47,230 nt of DNA from a virus: the IMG/VR virus record IMGVR_UViG_3300025671_000110, positions 1 through 47,230 of that record; one strand, written 5' to 3'. Shown one piece after another: positions 1 through 41,156 of this stretch. Numbering within the stretch: position 1 is the stretch's first letter; the number at the start of each line of letters is the position of its first letter. The translations under genes were made by a program, and so were the position numbers. Under the pieces are notes generated by a model. The model saw only the letters and a list, made by a program, of their open reading frames with translations, made no database searches and was not told where the DNA came from.

Positions 1-318
1 TGAATTGCCATGTATCAGGCTTGCCCAGCCAGCATAGGTTTCTTCGCCGGATATCGGATCGATATGGTAAAATTCCAACGCTATCCAATCCATGCATTGC
101 GCTTCATCCCAAGCTTTGGCAATGCTTTTGCCACGATAAAAAACGTTATCGCAATCTTCCGGATCCTGAACAGATACTTCAAAACCCATATGATTGATTG
201 CGTATTTGATCAATTGATATCCTGAATTTTTCATTTGTTTTCCCATTTCGGTTTTATGCAATTGTACGGATTTATTTGATATTGGCTGTAATCCGTGTGG
301 CCATTCATAGTTACTCAT
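1..318 (-). CDS. Hypothetical protein, 3' part cut by the window edge
   Basis: An uninterrupted leftward frame of 106 codons starts at the ATG complementary to 316-318 and runs off base 1 without a stop. It begins MSNYEWPHGLQPISNK and later reads GKSIAKAWDEAQCMDWIALE. An AAAGGA Shine-Dalgarno sequence lies about 8 bases upstream of the start. The protein is soluble-looking and rich in Trp, Cys and acidic residues. I do not recognise it. It is transcribed away from the late block and uses codons such as GCG, TGC and GGC more freely than the structural genes, so it may belong to a different module. A rightward frame covering the same bases (10-225) is its shadow. Confidence 0.72.
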   Translation of the reverse strand, partial: MSNYEWPHGLQPISNKSVQLHKTEMGKQMKNSGYQLIKYAINHMGFEVSVQDPEDCDNVFYRGKSIAKAWDEAQCMDWIALEFYHIDPISGEETYAGWASLIHGNS

Positions 319-448: not shown

Positions 449-546
449 CGATGATGATTTGCCGGGTGAAAACACAACAAATCGATCATCAAAACGATCA
501 TCACGGATCGTCAAAAGCTTGTCAAAGATCTGACGGAATGATGATC
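449..546. repeat. Iteron-like cluster of GATCATCA repeats
   Basis: CGATCATCA occurs at 483-491 and 495-503 with a 12-base period, followed by the near copy GGATCGTCA at 505-513. Inverted relatives lie at 449-457 (CGATGATGA) and 539-546 (TGATGATC). Such short direct repeats are typical of initiator or repressor binding sites. No replication initiator gene is visible here, so the role is inference. Confidence 0.5.
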
Positions 547-793
547 TGGTTTTGCCAATTCAATAGATTATTTAATTTATTCATAACTTTGTTATGAATT
601 AAATAATCTATTGTTTTCAGTGATTTGGGGATGGATACCATGGGGATTTGGAAAGACTGGATAGCCTTTGGCTATGTCATGTTTTTGACATTATCTTGAT
701 CTTGTCTATGAAAACTAACCAAAAACTAGTTAATCTTTGCCAATCTGCTGTCAATTCCTTGACAGAAAAGGATTCTTTGTCAATTTTCTGACA
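520..793. promoter_or_regulatory. Four operator-like dyads, TGTCA-N6-TGACA
   Basis: The same dyad with an exact six-base spacer occurs at 675-690, 749-764 and 778-793, and with one mismatch (TGACG) at 520-535. The half-sites contain TTGACA, so bound protein could cover -35 elements on either strand. Centre-to-centre distances between the three perfect copies are 74 and 29 bases. This is the arrangement expected of operators for a dimeric repressor or activator in the divergent control region. No candidate regulator gene is seen in the window. Confidence 0.6.
561..613. repeat. Long hairpin 2, related to hairpin 1
   Basis: Bases 561-577 pair with 597-613, there is an unpaired TATT at 578-581, and CATAAC/GTTATG closes on a TTT loop. 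The inner stem and the bulge match hairpin 1, while the outer arms (CAATAGAT/ATCTATTG) differ and still pair perfectly. A short TTTT run follows on the right, so weak rightward termination is possible. Confidence 0.75.
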
Positions 794-818
794 AATCTAT
801 AAAGATTTGTTCAGAACC

Positions 819-933
819 CCCACCAAAAAAATGCAGGTTTATATATATTATATATATGACCCTGACATATATTTAAAAAAATTAAAGGGACTTTCATCGG
901 GGCTAATTAGTTGGTAGGAAAAGGTTATAAAAA
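819..933. other. AT-rich tract with short TATATA dyads
   Basis: This part of the 319-1100 gap has runs of alternating AT around 839-858 and a dyad ATATATG-N7-CATATAT at 852-872, followed by A-rich sequence. There is no credible reading frame. It resembles easily melted DNA next to regulatory sites, but nothing identifies it as an origin. Confidence 0.4.
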
Positions 934-968
934 AAGTTCGTACAAGTTTAATTAACTTATACGAACTT
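930..968 (-). terminator. Terminator-like hairpin, best oriented leftward
   Basis: AAGTTCGTA (934-942) pairs with TACGAACTT (960-968), and AAGTT pairs with AACTT around TAATT, with one C-A mismatch. Read leftward the stem is followed by a run of seven T bases. It could stop antisense transcription leaving the late block, since no leftward gene lies to its right for 37 kb. Confidence 0.5.
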
Positions 969-1046
969 CACTTAACTATATAACTATGTGTGTTGCTGTG
1001 TCGGGTAGGTATTTACCTTTGGAAACTTAGTAGTAAAATAACATAT

Positions 1047-1075
1047 TTTCAAAACTTATGCAAGTGTGTTACAAT
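1047..1075 (+). promoter_or_regulatory. Candidate promoter at the head of the late block
   Basis: TTTCAA at 1047-1052 and TACAAT at 1070-1075 are separated by 17 bases and lie just before the gene at 1101. The -10 is good and the -35 weak. Confidence 0.35.
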
Positions 1076-1100: not shown

Positions 1101-1301
1101 ATGTACAAAGCAATAATTATAGTTTGCATGATCAACACAGAATGTGTAGAATTGCATGATAAACGTGGGCCTTACAAAACACAGGTAGAATGTATGGCAC
1201 GTAGTGCAGAAATGATGCAGGACTTTGTGTCTGAAGAAAGCACACCACCAGTAGTAACTTTAGAAGTACAGTGTAATATAGAAAAAGGTACAGCAGCATA
1301 A
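1101..1301 (+). CDS. Small cysteine-patterned protein with hydrophobic N-terminus
   Basis: This is a 66-residue protein starting MYKAIIIVC, preceded by an AGAAAGGAA ribosome site. It has a short hydrophobic N-terminus and four cysteines, with a VEC motif in the middle and a VQC near the C-terminus. The same layout is seen in the products of 36074-36268 and, less clearly, 14626-14787, so I read the three as relatives. Small proteins of this kind are common in marine phages and have no established function; export or membrane association is an inference from the N-terminus. It abuts the large terminase gene, whose ATG directly follows its stop. Confidence 0.75.
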   Translation: MYKAIIIVCMINTECVELHDKRGPYKTQVECMARSAEMMQDFVSEESTPPVVTLEVQCNIEKGTAA

Positions 1302-2867
1302 ATGTTAGATACACATGATACAGGAGTATTACCAGAACTATCTGGTATGGGGTCTTATATTAATTTAAAAGATTCTATGAATAAGTATATACATAAAGCA
1401 GCACGTGACGACTTTTTGACATTTGTAAAGTTATTTGCGCCTACACTTGTGTCTGACTTTGAAATGGGTAGGCATATTGAACTACTATGTTCAAAGTTAC
1501 AAGGTGTGGTAGAAGGAAATGTAAAAAGACTTATGGTCTTTCTGCCACCACGTTCATCTAAATCACTTATATGCAGCAAGCTATTCCCTGCATGGTACAT
1601 AGGAAACTATGCTAATCACGAGATTATGTCGGTATCACACAGTGATCAGCTTGCCAGTGACTTTGGTAGATCGGTAAGAGATATAGTAAACACAGAGAAG
1701 TTTCAAAGGATCTTTCGTGGTGTGTCCCTTCGCAGTGACGTAAAGGCAGCAGGTAAGTGGAAGACGAATAAGAATGGTTCTTACTATGCAGCAGGTGTAC
1801 GTAGTCAGGTGGCAGGTCGTGGCGCACACGTAGCATTACTTGATGACGTGATGTCTGAAGAAGACAGCTTCAGTGAAGCAGGACGTAGATATATTAAGGA
1901 ATGGTATCCTGCAGGTTTACGTACACGTATCATGCCCAATGGAGCCATCATTATTATCAACACACGATATCACTATGATGACCTGTGTGGATGGTTGTTA
2001 AAGCAGGAATCAGCAGTAGAAGAATCCAAGTATCCTTGGGAAGTTATATCTATACCTGCATGGTTAGATGAGCCAGCAGCAGAGTTACTTGGTTTACCAG
2101 TAGGAACTTCATACTTTCCAGAATGGAAATCAGATGAAATACTAAAACTGGATGAGCAGGAAATACGTGCATCTAATGGTAGTAGATACTGGAATGCTTT
2201 GTATATGCAAGATCCAAGTCCTGATGATGGTGGTATTATTAAAAAGAAATGGTTTAAGTGGTGGGATTATGAAGATCCACCAAGCTGTGACTTTATTATT
2301 CAGACATATGATACAGCATTTAGTACAAGTAGAACGGCTGACTATAGTGTAATTCAGACTTGGGGTATCTTTAATAACTATGAAGAAGACGGATATGGTG
2401 GTGAATATGTTACTTCTAATCTTATTCTATTAGGAAATGTAAGAGGAAGATTTGAATATCCTGAACTTCGTAGGCTGGCACAGGAACTATACGCACAGTA
2501 CAGACCAGATATTTGTATTATAGAAAAGAAAGCTTCGGGTCAGTCCTTGCTGCAGGATATGCGTAGGGCAGGTCTTCCTGTACTTGACTATCTTCCAGAC
2601 AGGGACAAGGTGGCACGTGTATACGCATCTACACCAATGATGGAAGCAGGACGTGTATGGTTACCTAATGATAGGGTATGGGCAGATGATTTGTTTTCAG
2701 AATGTATGTCATTTCCGAATGGCGCACATGATGACCAAGTTGACTGTATGACTATGGCTATTCATTATATGAAAGATAGCTGGAACCTTAGACATCCAGA
2801 AGATCCTGATTGGGAAGACGATGTTAATTATAGAAGACAAAAGCGTGTTGCATATTGGAGAACTTGA
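1302..2867 (+). CDS. terL: Terminase large subunit (ATPase and nuclease)
   Basis: The 521-residue protein is the DNA-packaging motor that docks on the portal and cuts concatemers. The N-terminal ATPase shows a Walker A-type LPPRSSKSL at 81-89 and a Walker B-type HVALLDD at 176-182. The C-terminal RNase H-like nuclease carries its acidic residues in QTYDTAF (D337), IIEKKASG (E408) and GAHDDQVD (D477/D478/D481). Length and motif order are normal for the family. It begins immediately after the stop of the preceding small gene, suggesting translational coupling. The small subunit is not next to it but 36 kb away on the other strand (38363-38881). Cos versus headful packaging cannot be decided from the sequence. 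Confidence 0.95.
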   Translation: MLDTHDTGVLPELSGMGSYINLKDSMNKYIHKAARDDFLTFVKLFAPTLVSDFEMGRHIELLCSKLQGVVEGNVKRLMVFLPPRSSKSLICSKLFPAWYIGNYANHEIMSVSHSDQLASDFGRSVRDIVNTEKFQRIFRGVSLRSDVKAAGKWKTNKNGSYYAAGVRSQVAGRGAHVALLDDVMSEEDSFSEAGRRYIKEWYPAGLRTRIMPNGAIIIINTRYHYDDLCGWLLKQESAVEESKYPWEVISIPAWLDEPAAELLGLPVGTSYFPEWKSDEILKLDEQEIRASNGSRYWNALYMQDPSPDDGGIIKKKWFKWWDYEDPPSCDFIIQTYDTAFSTSRTADYSVIQTWGIFNNYEEDGYGGEYVTSNLILLGNVRGRFEYPELRRLAQELYAQYRPDICIIEKKASGQSLLQDMRRAGLPVLDYLPDRDKVARVYASTPMMEAGRVWLPNDRVWADDLFSECMSFPNGAHDDQVDCMTMAIHYMKDSWNLRHPEDPDWEDDVNYRRQKRVAYWRT

Positions 2868-2917: not shown

Positions 2918-5407
2918 ATGGCTACAGAAAAAAATCCAAACGATCAAATTCCAACAGATAATATTATTAATGTGGACTTTGAAACAAATATGGACTCAAA
3001 TGTTAATTTTGAAGTCGATCCAGATACAGGTGAAATAGAAGTTGAATTTACTTCAGACGATAATGTTGTTGAAGTAGATTTTAGTTTAGATGATTCAGAC
3101 TTCTATGCTAACCTAGCTGAAGAACTAGATGAAGATATCCTTTCTTCTATCGGTCAAGAAATCTACGATAATTATGAAGCAGACAAAAGTTCACGTTCTG
3201 AATGGGAATCCATGTTTGAACGTGGCTTTGATTTGCTTGGCCTCAAACTACAGGAAACCACAGAACCGTTTGAAGGCGCAGCAACTGCTGTACACCCATT
3301 GCTGATCGAATCAGCAGTCAAGTTCCAATCAAGGGCAAGTCAAGAACTATTCCCTGCTTCCGGGCCTGTAAAGACCCAAGTTCTCGGTGATATTACGGAA
3401 GACCGTCAGCGTCAGGCTAACCGTGTTCGCAACTTTATGAATTACCAGTTGACTGAACAGATGCCTGAATACTTTGACGAGTTTGAACGTATGCTATTTC
3501 ACCTGCCCTTGATTGGTTCAGCTTTTAAAAAGATTTACTTTGATGCATCTGTAGATCGTCCTGTCAGTGAGTTTGTACCCATTGACCAGTTCTATGTGTC
3601 TTATTATGCTACAGATCTACGCCGTGCTGATCGATATACCCATGTGTTGTATCGCAGCCCTGTAGAACTGTCACGTCAAATTAATGCAGGTATGTATCTG
3701 GATAATGATCTTCCCGATCCTTATTTACCAGAACAATCTGCTCTTACAGAAAAAATGGATACAGTTCTAGGACTGTCACCTTCTTCAGATAGTGATATGC
3801 AATATGTTCTTCTTGAACAGCATTGCTATCTGGACATTGAAGAAGAAGGTGTGGCTTGTCCTTACATTGTAACTATTGAAGAAAGTTCACGTCAAGTTCT
3901 TTCTATTCGCCGCAACTGGGACCCAGAAGACGAAACAAAACAAAAGAAAATGTTCTTTACTCATTATCGTTTTGTACCGGGCTTTGGGTTCTATGGTCTT
4001 GGTCTTATTCACTTCCTTGGTAACCTTACTATGTCTGCTACGGCAGCTATGCGTAACCTTATCGATGCTGGTCAGTTTGCTAACTTGCCCGGTGGCTTTA
4101 AGGCAAAAGGTGTACGTATTGTAGGTGATAATGATCCTGTTGCTCCCGGCGAGTTTAAAGAAGTTGAAGCAACTGGTATGGATCTTACAAAGTCTATTGT
4201 ACCACTACCATATAAAGAACCATCAGGAACTTTGTTCCAGATGCTACAGTTTGTAGCGGCAGCAGGACAAAAGTTTGCAGATACCACTGAGCAAGTAATC
4301 AGTGAAGGTTCTAACTATGGGCCTGTAGGTACAACCATGGCACTGCTTGAAGCTTCTAGTAAGTTCTTTAGTGCTATCCATAAGCGTTTGCACAAGTCAC
4401 AAAAAGATGAATTTAAAATTTTGGCACGTATCGATTACGAAAGTTTGCCAGACGAATACCCCTACGATGTCCCCGGTGTTACAGAAAAGATTTTCAAATA
4501 CGACTTTGATGGTCGTGTAGATGTCTTGCCTGTATCAGATCCAAACATTCCTTCTTCTGCACACCGACTTATGATGACGCAGATGGCTGTACAAATGGCA
4601 CAGACAGCCCCACCGGGAATGTTTAATATGGAAGAACTAAACCGTACTTTGTTGAATGCGGCTAATATTCCTAATCTAGATCGCATTCTACCTAAGAAGC
4701 CTGAACCACAGCCTCTTGATCCTGTTACGGATATTGAAGCTGCAACTAAAGGCTTGCCTATTAAAGCATTTGCTGGACAAAACCATGATGCACATATTCA
4801 AGTTAAGACAATGTTCTTACAAGATCCTGCTAATGGTGGTAATCCTATGATGCAACGTATTGCACCTGTATTGCAAGCAAATATTCAAGAACATATTGTA
4901 ATGAAGTATGAGGAGCAAGTTAATGGTCTAACACGTCAAATGATGGCAGAAGCACCGCAAGGTGATCCTAATGCACAGAATCCACAAGTAATCGAACAAG
5001 TAATGGCTGCTGCTGCACAACAAGTCATGCAAGCTAACATGGCTGCAGCACAACAAGGAGGTGGTCCAGAACAACAAATGGTTGCTATTGAAGCACAACG
5101 TCTTGAAATTGAAAAACAAAAGATTCAGGCGCAACTTGCAAAAGAAGCTTCTGAAGGTGCGTTGAAGAACCGTGACCTTGATCTAAAAGAACAGAAGATT
5201 GCGCTTGATGCTTATAAAGTGGGAGCAGAGAATACTCTGAAGTCTGATGAAAAAGAGAAAGATCGAAATACAAAAACGGCTATCAAGGCTGTCGAAATCC
5301 TCGCAGACCTTATCAAACAAGAAGACAACATCAAAAACTCCGAAACGCTTAAAGCGGCAGACATGATTACCAAGTTACTAGCAGATGCTAAAAAGGGAAA
5401 GGCATAG
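2918..5407 (+). CDS. Portal protein
   Basis: The 829-residue protein is expected to form the dodecameric portal ring at the capsid vertex. The central region contains a stretch typical of long portals of marine phages (SEGSNYGPVGTTMALLEASS, then FFSAIHKRLHKSQKDEFKIL). The C-terminal 200 residues are Gln/Ala/Lys-rich and helical, as expected for a P22-type barrel. The first 60 residues are a very acidic extension with recurring VxF and VDF strands. Position directly after terL and before the scaffold and capsid genes supports the call. The ribosome site is GCAGGGAAAACT before the ATG. Confidence 0.9.
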   Translation: MATEKNPNDQIPTDNIINVDFETNMDSNVNFEVDPDTGEIEVEFTSDDNVVEVDFSLDDSDFYANLAEELDEDILSSIGQEIYDNYEADKSSRSEWESMFERGFDLLGLKLQETTEPFEGAATAVHPLLIESAVKFQSRASQELFPASGPVKTQVLGDITEDRQRQANRVRNFMNYQLTEQMPEYFDEFERMLFHLPLIGSAFKKIYFDASVDRPVSEFVPIDQFYVSYYATDLRRADRYTHVLYRSPVELSRQINAGMYLDNDLPDPYLPEQSALTEKMDTVLGLSPSSDSDMQYVLLEQHCYLDIEEEGVACPYIVTIEESSRQVLSIRRNWDPEDETKQKKMFFTHYRFVPGFGFYGLGLIHFLGNLTMSATAAMRNLIDAGQFANLPGGFKAKGVRIVGDNDPVAPGEFKEVEATGMDLTKSIVPLPYKEPSGTLFQMLQFVAAAGQKFADTTEQVISEGSNYGPVGTTMALLEASSKFFSAIHKRLHKSQKDEFKILARIDYESLPDEYPYDVPGVTEKIFKYDFDGRVDVLPVSDPNIPSSAHRLMMTQMAVQMAQTAPPGMFNMEELNRTLLNAANIPNLDRILPKKPEPQPLDPVTDIEAATKGLPIKAFAGQNHDAHIQVKTMFLQDPANGGNPMMQRIAPVLQANIQEHIVMKYEEQVNGLTRQMMAEAPQGDPNAQNPQVIEQVMAAAAQQVMQANMAAAQQGGGPEQQMVAIEAQRLEIEKQKIQAQLAKEASEGALKNRDLDLKEQKIALDAYKVGAENTLKSDEKEKDRNTKTAIKAVEILADLIKQEDNIKNSETLKAADMITKLLADAKKGKA

Positions 5408-6576: not shown

Positions 6577-6993
6577 ATGCAAGCAGTATCAATGGGCAAT
6601 TCAATTAAGAATGACGAATGGATTACAGCAGGTGATGCACCAGATCCATCCGTGTTGCCACACATTCCGGGCTACCACATTTTGGTACGTCCTGTTTCTG
6701 TAAAAGAACAAACTAAAGGTGGTATTATTCTACCTGATTCAACAAAGAATGACATTGCTTATCTTACAACGGTAGGTAAAGTTCTTAAAGTTGGTGACTG
6801 TGCTTATCAAGATACAAGCAAGTTTCCCAATGGGGCATGGTGTTCCGAAGGAGATTATGTATGTTATGGTAAACATACTGGTCATAAGTTCTTTTATAAA
6901 GGTATTCGTCTTATTCTTTTGTTTGATGACCAGATTTCTATGGTTGTTGAAGATCCAAAAGAACTAGACCCAACCTATAATTTGTCACACTAA
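6577..6993 (+). CDS. GroES-like co-chaperonin
   Basis: The 138-residue protein has a Cpn10/GroES fold signature: HIPGYHILVRPVSVKEQTKG, then GIILPDS, TVGKVLKVGD and a C-terminal GIRLILLFDDQISMVVEDP strand pair. A GroES-type mobile loop would fall within the KEQTKGG region. It is longer than bacterial GroES (about 95 residues), with an N-terminal extension. Phage co-chaperonins such as T4 gp31 work with host GroEL to fold the major capsid protein, and its position between portal and scaffold fits that. No GroEL homologue is in the window. Confidence 0.85.
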   Translation: MQAVSMGNSIKNDEWITAGDAPDPSVLPHIPGYHILVRPVSVKEQTKGGIILPDSTKNDIAYLTTVGKVLKVGDCAYQDTSKFPNGAWCSEGDYVCYGKHTGHKFFYKGIRLILLFDDQISMVVEDPKELDPTYNLSH

Positions 6994-7109
6994 TGGCAAA
7001 AACATATACATTGGCGGTAGCTTCTTATGGCAAACCTAAGAAGCGTAGGCCGGGAAGACACAAGAAAAGGTTAAATAAACGCAATAAACCTAAGATTTTC
7101 TTTGGATAG
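6993..7109 (+). CDS. Very small basic protein with RRPGRHKK motif
   Basis: A 38-residue frame starts at the TAATG overlap with the GroES-like gene and begins MAKTYTLAVASYGKPKK. Its core, KRRPGRHKKRLNK, resembles a short PGRHKK-type protein found in many cyanophages and other marine phages. The protein is strongly basic and ends KPKIFFG. Nucleic-acid contact is likely from charge alone. The stop/start overlap and the recognisable motif support it as a real gene. Confidence 0.7.
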   Translation: MAKTYTLAVASYGKPKKRRPGRHKKRLNKRNKPKIFFG

Positions 7110-20075: not shown

Positions 20076-23000
20076 ATGAGTTTGACTAATAGTCCATTTT
20101 GGTTTTCATCTGGTGCTACCTCTGCAGGTGGTGGCGGTACTGTAGTATATCCTACAAGTATTAACCAATCTTTACGTGTTGATGATTCTAAAAGCCAACG
20201 TATGTATCAAAATACTGTAGCTGGTAGCGCACAAAAATTCACAATGTCATGCTGGATTAAACGCACAGAGTTAAGTGATGCTGGCACTATTTTTTCAAGC
20301 TGGAATGGTGCGTCTAACTTTGTAAATATATATTTTAGTGGGGATTACCTATATGTTTATATTTGTGATAACCGTTCTGGATTTGTTGATTATAACTTTA
20401 ACACCCAATCTGCGGCAGGTGGTGGAATTATATTTAGAGATGTAAGTGCTTGGTATCATATAGTAGTTGCTGTAGATACTACTCAATCTTATGTCTATGA
20501 AAGATATAAAATATATATAAATGGTGTTGATACACAAGCACGTTCTGGTGGTTCTGGGAATGACCTTCCATTAAATTACAATATGGAAATTAACGAAGCT
20601 AGTGGTCAAAACTTTATATTTCATAATCCAGACAGTTCAACATATTATGGAAGTTTTTATGTTGCTGATATGGTTTATGTTGATGGCACAATGTATGATG
20701 CAAACACTTTTGGTGAGTTTATTAACGGCATATGGGTTCCTAAAGATATTTCTGCTCAATCAATTTCATATGGTAATAATGGATTTTATTTAACATTTTC
20801 TGATAACTCTACTGCTTCAGCATTAGGTACAGATTCTAGCGGTAATGGAAATAATTTTACAACAGTAAATAATTTTGCTACTAGTGACCAAGTGCCGGAT
20901 AGTCCGACTAATAACTTTGCTACTTGGAACGTGTTACAGCCAACAGGTGCGGCGCAAGGGACAATGACGCTTTCTGAAGGCAATATGAAAGCAACTGGCG
21001 GCTCAAGCATTTACCGTCAAGTTATGGGCAATATGTCTGTGCTTGGTGGCAAGTGGTACACTGAGTTCTATATCACTGATGCTGGCTATCCATCTTGGCA
21101 AGTTGGTTGGACAAAGGCAAATAGATATGAAGCCTTTACAGGTGCTGGAACCGAATCTACAGACCTAGCAAATTTTGGAGATTTTAGTACTTCAAATGGT
21201 TTTATTTCAACATTTGGTCAGGCAAGCTTTGGAACACAATACGCATGGTCAACTTTATGGTCTGGTGGAACAGCACCAACAACAGGCGATGTAATTGGTT
21301 GTGCCGCTGATTTTGATAATGGCAAGTTATGGTGGTCAATTAATGGAGAATGGATAAATATAGGTGCTGGTGCTGGTGACCCAGCAAATGATTCAAATCC
21401 ATCAGCAACCTACACTGCATCTGATTATGAAGATGATTTTAAATCACCACATTATTTGAACTACAATGGGTCTGCTGTTTTGAACACTGGTCAGGATAGC
21501 ACGTTTGCTGGAAACACAACTGCTGGCGGCAACAGTGATGCCAACGGCTACGGTGATTTTAAGTATTCTGTGCCATCCGGCTTCTTGGCGATGTGTTCAG
21601 CCAACCTGCCAGCACCAGCTATTGGTCCTCAACTAGCTTCAGGCCAACAGTCTGACAATTACTTTGAAACTATCCTATATACAGGTACTGGAGCAACACA
21701 ACACATTGGTTCAGGTGGCGCACAGCATCCTATAGATGTTACTACTGTTGCTAATAGTATTAGATTTAATGATGATGATAGTGCTTATTTAAGCCGCACA
21801 CCTGCATCTGCTGGTAATCGTAAAACATTTACACTTTCTACTTGGATAAAACCAAATCCAGCAGCTACAAATTATCCTCCTATTTTTAATGCAGGAACAA
21901 GTGCGCCAGATACGGTAATCAGACTTGATAATACTGGCAAGTTGCAGGTTGTACTTGAAAATGGTGGAGGCAGTGATTCGCAACTTACTACCAATAGAAC
22001 ATTAAAAAGTTCTTCAACATGGTATCATATCTTAGTTGCTGTAGATACTACAAACGCCACGGCTGATGATAGAATAAAAATTTATATTGATGGTGTTGAG
22101 GAAACATCTTTTGCATCTAGAACAAACCCATCTTTAAATTTAGATACAAATATTAATAATACAGTAGTTCACAAAATTGGAGCACAGAGATATGCATCCT
22201 ATTGGGATGGCTATATGGCAGAAATGTATTTTATTGATGGTACTGCTTTAGACCCAACATATTTTGGTCAATACGGTTCTAATGGTTATTGGATTCCAAA
22301 AGCTGTATCAGGTTTAACATTTGGTACTAATGGTTTCTATCTTGACTTTTCTGACAACTCAACTGCTACTGCATTGGGTACAGATAGTTCAGGTAATGCT
22401 AACAACTTTAGTGCAACTAACGTAGCAACAACTGACCAGATGGGTGATAGTCCTACACAAAACTTTGCTACATTTGACCCTAACAGACCTTCTGGAACAA
22501 CACTTACTTTATCAGAAGGTAACTTAAAAGCAGAAAGAACAAGCACTTCTTTTGCTCAAGCATATTCAACTTTTGAAATGACTAGTGGTAAATGGTATGC
22601 GGAGTTTTTATTAGATGCAGGTAACAGTGGTGTAGGTGTTATTGCTGGTAGAACAATTCCTAGTACAAATAGATATATGGGGCAAGATAGTTACACTTAT
22701 GGATATTATGTTGATGGACGTAAAGTAAATAACGCAACGTATACAACTTATGGAGATAGCTATACAACTGCCGCAGATGGTTCTGGTGATGTAATTGGTG
22801 TTTTAATTGATGCAGATAATGGAAACATATCTTTTAGTAAAAATGGAACAGTTCAAAACTCTGGTATTCCTGCTTTTAGTGGAATACAAGGCCCATTCAG
22901 ATTTGCTATAGCATCTGAATCAAACTGTTTTCACATAGCTAACTTTGGACAAGACGATACATTTTCAGGTTTTAAAACAAGTGGTAGTGCAGGAGCAGCA

Positions 23001-24065
23001 GACGGTAATGGCTATGGAAAATTTTATGATACACCACCTACTGGCTACCTTGCTTTGGTAAATGACAATATTCCAGTAGAAGGTATAACTGGTCCTGATT
23101 TTGTATGGTGGAAGAACCGAACTGATGTTGCATCGCATATGCTTGGAGATAGCGTTAGAGGTGCTGGTAAGGTTTTGTCTTCTAATAACACTGACGTTGA
23201 ACTTGATAGCACATCAACGTATTTTTCATCATTTGACTATGATGGATTTACAGTTGGGACTGCTAATGTAACAAATGGTTTAAATGATAAAATGGTAGCT
23301 TGGACTTGGAAAGCAGGTGGTAAAGCTAATACATTTAATATAGATGGTACAGGCTATGCCTCAATAGCTGCATCACCTATTAGTGATGGTACTATTCCAT
23401 TAACAGGTTTGTCTACTAATACAACTTCTGGGTTTAGTATTCTTGGCTATGCTGGCACAGGTTCTAATGGAACAGTGGCTCATGGCTTATCTAGTGCGCC
23501 GGAGATGTTTATCTGCCGCAACCGCACCAACGCAAGAGACTGGCTGGTTTACCATAAAGACATTGGCTACACAAAAGACATCTTCCTGAACCTGACAAAT
23601 GCAGAAAGAAGCAATGACGTTTATCAGCAACAGGCACCTGATAATAGTTTGATTTATCTTGAGACACAAGACAGGATAAATGAAAGTGGGTCAAATCATA
23701 TTATGTGGTGTTTCCACAGTGTTGATGGCTACAGCAGGGTCGGCAAATATGTCGGCAACAATTCTACAAATGGCCCCTTTAATTACACAGGGTTTAGGCC
23801 AGCGTTTGTTATAATAAAAAGAACAGATAGCACGGCAGGATGGGTTCTTTACGATGATAAAAGGGACACATACAATCAGATGCAATATGTATTATGGCCT
23901 AATTTAAATAATGCTGAATACACATCAAACTTGCTTCATGTAGATTTTTTAAGCAATGGCTTTAAGGTTCGTAATGCTACTTATGGTGAAACTAACGCAT
24001 CAGGCGGCAGTTACATTTACATCGCCTTTGCCGAACAACCTTTTAAATACGCCAATGCACGATAG
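20076..24065 (+). CDS. Receptor-binding fibre with duplicated LamG-SPRY modules
   Basis: The 1329-residue protein is built of two copies of a lectin-like module. Copy one has a LamG/concanavalin-type part near residue 55 (FTMSCWIKRT; WYHIVVAVDTTQSY) and a SPRY-type part near residue 326 (GKWYTEFYITDAG). Copy two has the same parts near residues 585 (FTLSTWIKP; WYHILVAVDTTNA) and 839 (GKWYAEFLLDAG). The last 320 residues (DFVWWKNRTDVASHMLGDSV; GFRPAFVIIKRTDSTAGW) match a C-terminal domain type found on other phage fibres (DUF7483-like by memory). Base composition varies along the gene. An AGGAG ribosome site precedes the ATG. It most likely binds host surface sugars. Confidence 0.82.
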   Translation: MSLTNSPFWFSSGATSAGGGGTVVYPTSINQSLRVDDSKSQRMYQNTVAGSAQKFTMSCWIKRTELSDAGTIFSSWNGASNFVNIYFSGDYLYVYICDNRSGFVDYNFNTQSAAGGGIIFRDVSAWYHIVVAVDTTQSYVYERYKIYINGVDTQARSGGSGNDLPLNYNMEINEASGQNFIFHNPDSSTYYGSFYVADMVYVDGTMYDANTFGEFINGIWVPKDISAQSISYGNNGFYLTFSDNSTASALGTDSSGNGNNFTTVNNFATSDQVPDSPTNNFATWNVLQPTGAAQGTMTLSEGNMKATGGSSIYRQVMGNMSVLGGKWYTEFYITDAGYPSWQVGWTKANRYEAFTGAGTESTDLANFGDFSTSNGFISTFGQASFGTQYAWSTLWSGGTAPTTGDVIGCAADFDNGKLWWSINGEWINIGAGAGDPANDSNPSATYTASDYEDDFKSPHYLNYNGSAVLNTGQDSTFAGNTTAGGNSDANGYGDFKYSVPSGFLAMCSANLPAPAIGPQLASGQQSDNYFETILYTGTGATQHIGSGGAQHPIDVTTVANSIRFNDDDSAYLSRTPASAGNRKTFTLSTWIKPNPAATNYPPIFNAGTSAPDTVIRLDNTGKLQVVLENGGGSDSQLTTNRTLKSSSTWYHILVAVDTTNATADDRIKIYIDGVEETSFASRTNPSLNLDTNINNTVVHKIGAQRYASYWDGYMAEMYFIDGTALDPTYFGQYGSNGYWIPKAVSGLTFGTNGFYLDFSDNSTATALGTDSSGNANNFSATNVATTDQMGDSPTQNFATFDPNRPSGTTLTLSEGNLKAERTSTSFAQAYSTFEMTSGKWYAEFLLDAGNSGVGVIAGRTIPSTNRYMGQDSYTYGYYVDGRKVNNATYTTYGDSYTTAADGSGDVIGVLIDADNGNISFSKNGTVQNSGIPAFSGIQGPFRFAIASESNCFHIANFGQDDTFSGFKTSGSAGAADGNGYGKFYDTPPTGYLALVNDNIPVEGITGPDFVWWKNRTDVASHMLGDSVRGAGKVLSSNNTDVELDSTSTYFSSFDYDGFTVGTANVTNGLNDKMVAWTWKAGGKANTFNIDGTGYASIAASPISDGTIPLTGLSTNTTSGFSILGYAGTGSNGTVAHGLSSAPEMFICRNRTNARDWLVYHKDIGYTKDIFLNLTNAERSNDVYQQQAPDNSLIYLETQDRINESGSNHIMWCFHSVDGYSRVGKYVGNNSTNGPFNYTGFRPAFVIIKRTDSTAGWVLYDDKRDTYNQMQYVLWPNLNNAEYTSNLLHVDFLSNGFKVRNATYGETNASGGSYIYIAFAEQPFKYANAR

Positions 24066-38428: not shown

Positions 38429-38881
38429 CTCTTCGTCATCCTCATATTCTTCTTCGTCTTCATCTGCAAACTGATCTGGGAAAGCTTGGGCAGCAAGTTC
38501 AAATACTTTTTCAAATCCAATTATTTTCATGGAATCAATGATCTCTTTTTCAAGAGATTCAGAAGAGACATCTTCTGTCTCAGAATTATTTCCCCTTACA
38601 CGAGAAAGAAGTTCAAGGGCTTTTAGTGCAGTAGTTCCGTTACCTGCATTACGAGCAACTTCATACTGCTTTTCTATCTCAGATATAACATCTACATCAG
38701 TAACAATCTGACTTCGTAACTCTTCGATACGTTCAAGAATTGCAGTTTCCTGTAGTAGTCTATATCCTTGATTGTGTGCAGAAGCTTCACTATATCCTGC
38801 ATCCTTTGCCGCCCTTGTAGCATTGTTATGCAGGATATAGTTTTGACAGAACTTCTCTTGCTTTTCTTTAAGCTGCGTCAT
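38363..38881 (-). CDS. terS: Terminase small subunit
   Basis: The 172-residue protein begins with the Terminase_2-type DNA-binding domain: LKEKQEKFCQNYILHNNATR, AAKDAGYSEASAHNQGYRLL, ILERIEELRSQ. A helical middle (KALELLSRVRG) and a very acidic C-terminal tail (FADEDEEEYEDDEELLL) follow. It recognises the packaging site and activates the large subunit. Unusually it lies on the strand opposite terL and at the far end of the late block. It overlaps the preceding leftward gene by 14 bases and the holin tail by 66 bases on the other strand. The gene would therefore be expressed from the leftward transcript. Confidence 0.85.
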   Translation of the reverse strand: MTQLKEKQEKFCQNYILHNNATRAAKDAGYSEASAHNQGYRLLQETAILERIEELRSQIVTDVDVISEIEKQYEVARNAGNGTTALKALELLSRVRGNNSETEDVSSESLEKEIIDSMKIIGFEKVFELAAQAFPDQFADEDEEEYEDDEELLLTEELTSTTDTEAGSNDDT

Positions 38882-41156
38882 TCAATAACTCTGTGTAGTA
38901 TTTTTCCTGACCACGTTTAGATTGCTTCCAAACTGCTGCAGCTAGAGTTCCTTCACCATGGAAGTTAATACCCATGTCCATGTCTACATTATCAAACAGC
39001 TTCTCACAGTCTTGTGCCATAGCAAGTAGTTCACCTGTAGTCCAGAACTTATGACCACCTGTTTCTACCTGCATATACTTAGGCTTAGTTTTTTCTGTGT
39101 CAGTCTTTTCCTTTTTCATTTCCTCTGTCATAGTTGGAACAGAACAATCAAAACCAAACAGTTCAAAGTTTCTAAAGCCTAGTGTATGTGCAATGGCAAT
39201 GGTACGCATAGCCGCACAAGTACCACCAGTGATAAGTGTAGAGCCTTCTTCTATACCTGTAGACTTGTCTACTACAATCTTATCCTTTACATTCATGTCA
39301 CGTAGTGCATCTGAATAAGCTTGCCATCCTTTTATATTAGCACCTTGTTCAAGCAAGTATTTAGTAACAGATGGGTCAGTCATAGAAGCAACAAGCATGA
39401 TAGTCTTATCGTCCACTGTCTTAAACAAATCTTTACGTACTACACCATGTGTACTTGTTCCATCAATAGGACGTGGATCTAGGATAACACAGGCAAATGG
39501 TTGGATGCCATTCTCAAGTAACTTAGGATAGCTATGCTTAACGCAGAACACTTTACCTTTAGTTTGCTTGATTGTCTTCTTAACCAATTTCCAGTTAACA
39601 CTATCACCGCCAGAGATAATAATAGCAGTTTCATTATTGATCTTACTAGTTTTAATCCAGTCGAAATCTTTAATAAGCTTTTTATTTTCTTTTACATTAT
39701 TAATGATCTCTTCTTTAGGCCGTGAATCTTTAGGTGTAACAACAATAGGTACACGTGTTAATTCATCAGGTAGTTTAGGTAGTCCTTCTTTCATAGCAAC
39801 AAAGCATAGGTGTGTAACACCACCATCCTTTACCATGTCACTGCTAGGAAGAACTATTTTAGCATATGCCTTAACCTCTTTCATTAACTGATTAACGCCA
39901 TCATTCTCAGGCATACGTCCTTCTTTGTCTTTAGAAAAGTAATCATCAAAGACAAGAACAGGAATATGTTTTAGGTTTTCAAAGTCAGCCTTAACTGTTT
40001 CATATGAATGACCGCCATCAATGTATGCAAAGTCTGCACCCTTAACTGATTCACAATCTTTAAGAGTTTGTTTGGTGTCTCCTTTATATAGTTCAAATGT
40101 AAACTCTTTTCCTTTTTCAAACATTTTACCACCGAACTCTTCCAGTCGTTTAGTAACAGCGGCTAGTGTATTGTGTGGTTTAGAGTTTAATTCTATATGG
40201 TCTAGTTCAGGTGTAGCTTCCTCAAACAAATCAAAGCCTACATAATGTACACTGTCTGTGTACTGGAATGCAGCCATAGCCATTTGAATAGCACGTCCAC
40301 CATTCCAAGTACCTGTCTCTACAATAGTACTTGGTCTGTAAAACCCAATCATATCAAGCAATTGCTTGTATCTTTTAGGCCCATTAACATCAGGTGCTAC
40401 CTGAGTATCACTAAGTTTCTTCTTTAGATTACCCTTGAAGTGGTCGAAGTATTCTGCCAATGGAGACTGAGCAAATGCTGCCAGACCTTTTACTCCTTGT
40501 GACAGATTGTTTGTTACCATACCATGTGCTTTGTAAATATTTAACAAACGTTCAAAGATAAATCCGTCATGCCATTCACGATAAGCAACAACCTCACCTA
40601 TAGTGTAACAGCCACGAAGGTCAGCAAGTAAGCTACAAGTGTTATGAGAACTAAGGTTAAAGCCCATAAAACTTGTTTCGCTATAGTCAACATCCATTCT
40701 ACCAAGGTGGACAAGATCTGCTTTGTCTGGTAACCATTGCTTAAACTTTTCAACATCCAATCTCCTTGTGGTTACTGTGTCTGCATCCAACCAGATCATC
40801 CAGTTGCTTTCGTCATAGACATCTTCCATCATTTCAAAAGCTAGATCGGTCATGGCATATACTTTGTGACACCATTTGATAGCATCAAGCCGCCAGTTAT
40901 ATGGCATATTACCACCTTCAGTACCATCGTGAAGCTTCATACGTTCACGATACTCAAGCATTTCTTCAACATCATTTAGATTACGATACTCAATTGTATT
41001 ACAAACAGGATGTTCTACATCCTTAATGTTAAAGTCATGGTAGTATGCGATTAGTTTAAAATGTTTTGGATTCCATTTATCCATAACACTTTCAAGCATT
41101 TTCTTGGCATACTCATGGTAGCCTTGTTCACTGAACGATGTTACAAAAACATACAT
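38868..41156 (-). CDS. Trimodular glycosyltransferase / methyltransferase / DUF115 protein
   Basis: The 762-residue protein joins three domains. Residues 1-240 look like a nucleotide-sugar glycosyltransferase, with IWLDADTVTTRRLD (DxD at 124-126). Residues 260-460 form a class I SAM-dependent methyltransferase, with IVETGTWNGG (278-287), YIDGGHSYET (379-388) and VFDDYF (402-407). Residues 505-760 resemble the DUF115/MptE-type domain found in flagellin-glycosylation accessory factors, with AIIISGGDSV and FGFDCS. Together they suggest building or modifying a surface or virion sugar. It shares one base with the upstream glycosyltransferase gene. Confidence 0.82.
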   Translation of the reverse strand: MYVFVTSFSEQGYHEYAKKMLESVMDKWNPKHFKLIAYYHDFNIKDVEHPVCNTIEYRNLNDVEEMLEYRERMKLHDGTEGGNMPYNWRLDAIKWCHKVYAMTDLAFEMMEDVYDESNWMIWLDADTVTTRRLDVEKFKQWLPDKADLVHLGRMDVDYSETSFMGFNLSSHNTCSLLADLRGCYTIGEVVAYREWHDGFIFERLLNIYKAHGMVTNNLSQGVKGLAAFAQSPLAEYFDHFKGNLKKKLSDTQVAPDVNGPKRYKQLLDMIGFYRPSTIVETGTWNGGRAIQMAMAAFQYTDSVHYVGFDLFEEATPELDHIELNSKPHNTLAAVTKRLEEFGGKMFEKGKEFTFELYKGDTKQTLKDCESVKGADFAYIDGGHSYETVKADFENLKHIPVLVFDDYFSKDKEGRMPENDGVNQLMKEVKAYAKIVLPSSDMVKDGGVTHLCFVAMKEGLPKLPDELTRVPIVVTPKDSRPKEEIINNVKENKKLIKDFDWIKTSKINNETAIIISGGDSVNWKLVKKTIKQTKGKVFCVKHSYPKLLENGIQPFACVILDPRPIDGTSTHGVVRKDLFKTVDDKTIMLVASMTDPSVTKYLLEQGANIKGWQAYSDALRDMNVKDKIVVDKSTGIEEGSTLITGGTCAAMRTIAIAHTLGFRNFELFGFDCSVPTMTEEMKKEKTDTEKTKPKYMQVETGGHKFWTTGELLAMAQDCEKLFDNVDMDMGINFHGEGTLAAAVWKQSKRGQEKYYTELLNDAA

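Follow-up and report, generated by a model that had tools for sequence, protein, structure and literature searches.

The question raised by this locus is why a single dyad, TGTCA-N6-TGACA, recurs within a short stretch at one end of a phage contig, and what kind of protein it might serve. The window, a stretch of 47,230 bases, is an entire IMG/VR virus contig. A count over its whole length returns exactly three perfect matches, at 675-690 (TGTCATGTTTTTGACA), 749-764 (TGTCAATTCCTTGACA) and 778-793 (TGTCAATTTTCTGACA), all inside the control region, and none in the 47,230 bases outside 675-793. The three lie within 120 bases, where 0.13 are expected in the window, and none of 100 shuffled windows reached three, which agrees with the statement in the initial annotation that chance is an unlikely source. 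When one mismatch is allowed, the window holds five matches against 2.7 expected: the three perfect copies, one at 520-535 (TGTCAAAGATCTGACG) inside the array and one at 6983-6998 outside it. The copy at 520 alone is therefore not significant against the whole window. It keeps the GTCA-N6-TGAC core intact and carries G as its outer base; since the outer base varies in the family, the G at its end reflects normal variability and not damage, and the description of three perfect dyads and one with a single mismatch stands. The four sites, none of which has a strand, spread over 275 bp with irregular spacing.

To the right of the array are a small ORF, the terminase large subunit (TerL) gene, and the portal and other virion genes, all directed rightward. 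To the left is the first leftward (early) gene (1-318, minus strand), which is truncated by the window edge, probably starts at the ATG at 318 behind AGGACA, and has no family match. The contig of locus L004 (G001, 39,607 bases), whose TerL is 100% identical to that of the window, extends past both window edges. Matching genes in this near-identical contig place a family A DNA polymerase, a T7-like primase/helicase, MazG, GP88 and many small ORFs in the missing stretch of approximately 11.3 kb, all of them leftward. With leftward replication genes on the left and rightward TerL and virion genes on the right, the dyads thus lie at the parting of the early/replication and late blocks. Two near-perfect inverted repeats without strand are found in the leader: one with 21-nt arms at 372-424, ahead of the first leftward gene and a possible bidirectional terminator, and one with 20-nt arms at 561-613, between the first and second dyads. 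Both contain the 17-base word TATTTAATTTATTCATA. Relatives too have long near-perfect hairpins in the early leader, each phage with its own sequence, as in L011 (at about 300-336, 590-636 and 780-828).

A conserved AT-rich core, a leftward terminator-like hairpin and a candidate late promoter lie between the dyads and TerL. The core (ACCCCCACCAAAAAAA-N12-TTTATATATATTATATATATGACCCTGACATATATTT.., 811-905, minus strand) was aligned in 15 of the 21 representatives tried, is found in relatives both with and without dyads, and contains CCCCCACCAAAAAAA together with an AT-rich stretch. It is a candidate leftward early promoter, or else a candidate origin; the promoter scan did not pick up a promoter in it. 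The hairpin with its T tail (933-969, minus strand) comes from a terminator scan in which two terminator-like sites were found against 0.3 expected from shuffles. The candidate late promoter (1046-1075, plus strand) reads TTTTCA-18-TACAAT with TG before the second hexamer, in a scan that was near chance overall. It is followed by a 66-aa ORF (1101-1301, plus strand), with homologues of its family at 15 of the 79 tandem-dyad loci, and by TerL (1302-2867, plus strand; PHROG 38, E 2.2e-111), with which the large genes of the rightward late block begin. Farther along the window, at 38868-41156, is a 762-aa protein that combines a methyltransferase domain with an MptE-like domain and is conserved in the clade.

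Relatives were surveyed at 77 of the 80 TerL loci fetched (L047, L048 and L071, truncated in TerL, were left out), counting dyads with at most one mismatch within 1.5 kb upstream of TerL. Arrays of at least two dyads were present in L004, L005, L006, L008, L010, L012, L014, L015, L017, L038, L042, L044, L050, L062, L069 and L070. Several further loci have single dyads, many have none, some have too little upstream sequence to tell, and most of the more distant relatives are without the dyad. The close relatives L004 and L005 retain the second and third copies and have TGTCAAAGATTTGACG at the position of the first. The copy at 778, which follows the block GAAAAGGATTCTT, has a counterpart in L038 and L044, where the same block precedes a site, and is decayed in L042 and L017. 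L006 (TerL 90%) also carries four perfect sites, placed at different distances. In G007 (57 kb) all five copies of the GTCA-N6-TGAC core fall in the control region by listed coordinates; whole-contig counts in contigs without arrays give 0 to 3 scattered matches.

After dereplication to 32 relatives, 46 sites are found in 36.2 kb of control region versus 9 in 303 kb elsewhere, a density of 1.27 per kb compared with 0.030, or about 40 times. At least one site is present in 12 of the 32 and at least two in 9. The remaining 20 control regions have no site, nor was an array seen in the stretch examined around TerL in seven cultured distant relatives (HTVC023P, HTVC027P, 023Pt_psg01, DSL-LC04, CRP-902, CRP-810 and MinM2), so a phage of this genome plan can do without the dyad. 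Individual sites are gained, lost and shifted among relatives, yet arrays persist. Because such arrays are kept at the early/late junction, a real switch region is likely. The dyad is neither common elsewhere nor lost in close relatives, and its near confinement to the region upstream of TerL on the relatives' contigs upholds the view that the array is selected.

Fifty unique sites from 16 loci, collected by the GTCA-N6-TGAC core, give the consensus YGTCAAwwwwTTGACR, in which positions 2-5 are invariant since the search required them. In these 50 sites the outer base is T at a frequency of 0.72, C at 0.18 and A at 0.10, position 6 is A at 0.85, and there is no conserved signal outside the 16 bp. 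The GTCA and TGAC blocks of the two half-sites are centred 10 bp apart around an AT-rich centre, and the 16-bp symmetric site resembles what a single dimer might cover. Neighbouring sites are separated by 16 to hundreds of bp.

The tandem dyad is also present in many unrelated phages, with G+C contents from 0.24 to 0.63. This set covers 79 of 94 stretches (80 were listed, and L006 already belonged to the TerL set). A TerL-family gene lies within 2.5 kb in 19 of the 79 loci, from several unrelated lineages, and a small terminase (TerS) of the family seen in G026 is near the dyads in 8. Reading of the sequence adds a TerS-like gene near the dyads in four more (L119, L123, L142 and L145); in the first three of these, five nearly abutting dyads lie between the TerS-like gene and an apparent serine recombinase. 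Bacterial tandem dyads amount to at least 120 stretches (80 listed, 14 inspected), mostly from Actinobacteria, in many of which a tandem TGTCA-N6-TGACA about 28 bp apart recurs (L207, L272 and similar loci). As read from the sequence, the sites precede apparent MarR-like genes in L207 and L272 and adjoin apparent LacI-like genes in L233 and L275. Since it occurs in unrelated phages and before bacterial regulator-like genes, the dyad is readable by more than one protein and does not by itself tell which.

The search for that protein covered the families listed, in four of the listings up to 25 each, with the long ORF at 20076-24065 and several short ORFs outside the scan. No integrase, CI/Cro-like repressor or phage RNA polymerase is among the families listed for the window and the approximately 11.3 kb beyond its edge, and no CRP/FNR-family protein is among those listed for the phage's proteins. 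The regulator had been placed beyond the left edge; that stretch can be read from the near-identical contig and yielded no recognisable DNA-binding regulator. A lysogeny module was rejected, as no integrase or repressor is among the listed families. Of the lysis/lysogeny or early/late switch proposed in the initial annotation, the early/late part is favored by a non-chance array at the divergent boundary, and the lysogeny part falls away. The phage looks virulent and marine, and shows no sign of lysogeny.

No family is common to 18 dyad-bearing contigs yet missing from 8 without the dyad; families limited to small subsets of dyad bearers occur, for example one in 5 of the 18. Within the clade, a finer comparison singled out a 70-aa protein that G001, G004 and G007 encode and 8 contigs lack. 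It was dropped as the cognate protein: of 12 further contigs with relatives of it, only G230 has a dyad cluster. TerS was also rejected as the binder, because its similarity does not track the sites. The TerS of the window is 54-68% identical to those of dyad-less phages and 64-67% to those of the dyad-bearing G004 and G007, while in G026, where six sites occur, the TerS shares only 30% identity with it. Tested as a regulon in 190 alphaproteobacterial genomes, TGTCAAN4TTGACA gave 17 matches, each in a different genome, against about 30 expected by simple arithmetic and 4 for the reversed pattern; the reading of the dyad as a host regulon was discarded as not enriched, which holds for the sampled Alphaproteobacteria. 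No TerL relative was found by alignment in GTDB contigs. The exact string TGTCAN6TGACA had no match in the literature searched, although the motif may nevertheless have been published.

In an unbiased count over the 32 dereplicated control regions, three groups of gapped 4-mer pairs emerged. The first is the TGTCA dyad (46 versus 1.0 expected, 12 loci), the second GAAC-N7-GAAC (37 versus 0.8, 10 loci), and the third GTGT-N11-CACA (40 versus 1.8, 14 loci), a palindrome read as TGTkrCA-N4-TGymACA. This second palindrome (GTGTTGCA/GTGTGACA-N4-TGyMACAC) is found in the control regions of L022, L031, L010, L012, L038 and L042, where in several cases it also lies between the late-promoter TATAAT, which it closely follows, and the small ORF. 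Tested as a host regulon in 58 alphaproteobacterial genomes it was not enriched, with 6 matches versus 3 for the reversed pattern. A perfect TGTTTCACGTGAAACA, which we take to be a chromosomal parS sequence, occurs at L068:574, L069:4964, L070:740 and L350:6142; in L068, L069 and L070 it is about 590 bases upstream of TerL. In L028-L030, L036-L037 and L045 the same region carries 20-base direct repeats (e.g. TATATTGATTTCTATGTATC) at intervals of about 160-450 bp, which are perhaps phage-specific early promoters.

GTTC-N7-GTTC, the other strand of the second group, is described in the accessible part of PMC12700426 as the LexA (SOS) box of Caulobacter. It occurs 37 times in the 36.2 kb of control region and 8 times in 303 kb elsewhere, and is present in the control region of 10 of the 32 dereplicated relatives, 7 of which have two or more. 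The control region of the window has none, and the window copies are only at 3885 and 12797. Arrays of this box, often phased at 11 bp, lie upstream of TerL in L014, L050, L062, L011 and others, and the phages with such arrays have no visible repressor. A long version of the box is enriched in 58 alphaproteobacterial genomes (18 matches versus 1 for the reversed pattern), so alphaproteobacterial hosts are supported for the sister phages that carry it. The presence of other palindromes and LexA-type boxes at the same place in sister phages fits an operator region. Counting TGTCAA-N4-TTGACA, TGTkrCA-N4-TGymACA, host-type LexA boxes and chromosomal-type parS (L068-L070) together, we suggest very tentatively that the early/late junction could be a platform on which the sites of several regulators are swapped in and out; related virulent phages, having neither integrase nor repressor, would in this way tie their early programme to different host signals, SOS among them.

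The four dyads, set in the long leader between the early and late genes, are probably an operator array to which a sequence-specific protein would bind as a dimer. What the sequences show is an array that is confined to one region, comes back at the corresponding position in relatives, and changes there in how many sites it has and where they lie; the conserved core, the leftward terminator and the late promoter candidate that surround the array also count for this reading. Counted against it are the absence of a family specific to dyad-bearing phages, the failure of the one small candidate, and tandem sites that often lie near terminase genes, as a packaging role would also predict. A dimeric protein would bind the 16-bp sites YGTCAAwwwwTTGACR, and its binding may act on leftward early transcription, as a roadblock or by repression downstream of a promoter in the core at 811-905. 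The array would work by site number rather than by exact position.

The half-sites read TTGACA on each strand, and had therefore been proposed to overlap promoter -35 boxes; the dyads would then be back-to-back -35 pairs in a cluster of bidirectional promoters. A -10-like hexamer (at least 5/6) 16-18 nt from a TTGACA half was sought at the 50 unique sites in both directions (100 tests), and was found in 5%, versus 5% at random positions of the same regions. The only two dyad-linked matches of the promoter scan are leftward, at 525 and 514, with GATGAT, and promoter-scan matches in that region are near chance (9 found versus 5.2 +/- 2.3 expected). Promoters moreover need neither strict symmetry nor an N6 spacer. 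The overlap was not borne out, and on the -10 test the promoter cluster was rejected as scarcely credible. Replication-origin iterons in an AT-rich initiation region are very improbable. The conserved AT-rich core adjoins the array, and GC skew changes sign near it, from negative over the genes that run left to positive over those that run right; the skew is, however, confounded with gene direction, regular rather than variable spacing would be expected, and no initiator gene is seen in a phage with a T7-like primase/helicase and a family A polymerase.

A part in packaging, with the array belonging to a cosB- or pac-like site whose repeats are bound by the small terminase, is improbable as well. 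It would suit the position upstream of TerL in this clade and the terminase genes near tandem dyads in unrelated phages (TerL 19/79, G026-type TerS 8/79), but site type does not follow TerS type, as G026 illustrates, the TerS gene is on the opposite side of the genome, and sister phages with a similar TerS have other words there. Rather unlikely, but deserving more weight, is recognition by a host regulator of CRP/FNR-, FleQ- or other bEBP-like geometry, through which the phage would sense the state of its host, much as other virulent phages use CtrA or Spo0A. The Caulobacter LexA-type boxes (PMC12700426, accessible part) at the same place in sister phages, the use of that box by Alphaproteobacteria, and the failure of family comparison to find a phage-encoded partner all speak for it. 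The core GTCAA-N4-TTGAC also fits the FleQ boxes GTCaNTAAAtTGAC and GTCAaAAAAtTGAC proposed in PMC6120874, so far as the accessible part of that source goes. Against it, the dyad forms no regulon in the 190 alphaproteobacterial genomes, and the control region of the window is without a LexA-type box.

Among known systems, the OR and OL operators of phage lambda are tandem dyads of 16-17 bp for a dimer between divergent transcription units. The window likewise has tandem dyads in a divergent control region, but no repressor or integrase is among its listed families, and its dyads overlap no recognisable promoters and are irregularly spaced over 275 bp. The CRP/FNR/CooA-type site, TGTGA-N6-TCACA, has the same five-base half-sites and six-base spacer; the half-site differs, and no such protein is among the listed families of the phage. 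The CtrA boxes of alphaproteobacterial phages ('lytic deferment'), supported by EMSA and reporter assays with a known host regulator, are clustered in phage promoter regions and served by a regulator that the phage does not encode, which is one reading here (PMC9437464, accessible part). Unlike those boxes, the dyad of the window has no regulon in the sampled Alphaproteobacteria and no cognate protein was found. GIL01, in the accessible part of PMC4551915, is a temperate phage controlled by LexA, with SOS boxes in its early control region and a phage-encoded co-repressor; sister phages of the window resemble it in their GTTC-N7-GTTC boxes, whereas the window itself does not. For FleQ, a Pseudomonas regulator, the accessible part of PMC6120874 gives the core palindrome GTCAN(4-6)TGAC, which the dyad matches, and a P. 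putida consensus, GTCAaAAAAtTGAC, to which the sites of some relatives are equal. The outer T/A of the dyad is extra, however, and the sister phages point to Alphaproteobacteria.

Operator arrays are already known; what stands out here is that site types are swapped. Phages that read host regulators are in print, with CtrA and, as told in the accessible part of PMC9437464, also Spo0A and LexA; given these precedents, the present case extends a known idea and founds none. Should the array prove to be an operator, this uncultured clade of marine phages would have an early/late switch without a visible repressor gene, and the dyad itself would be a ready bait for its protein. The exchange of site types among close relatives, the host LexA box included, would offer a natural series on whether strictly lytic-looking phages sense host stress.
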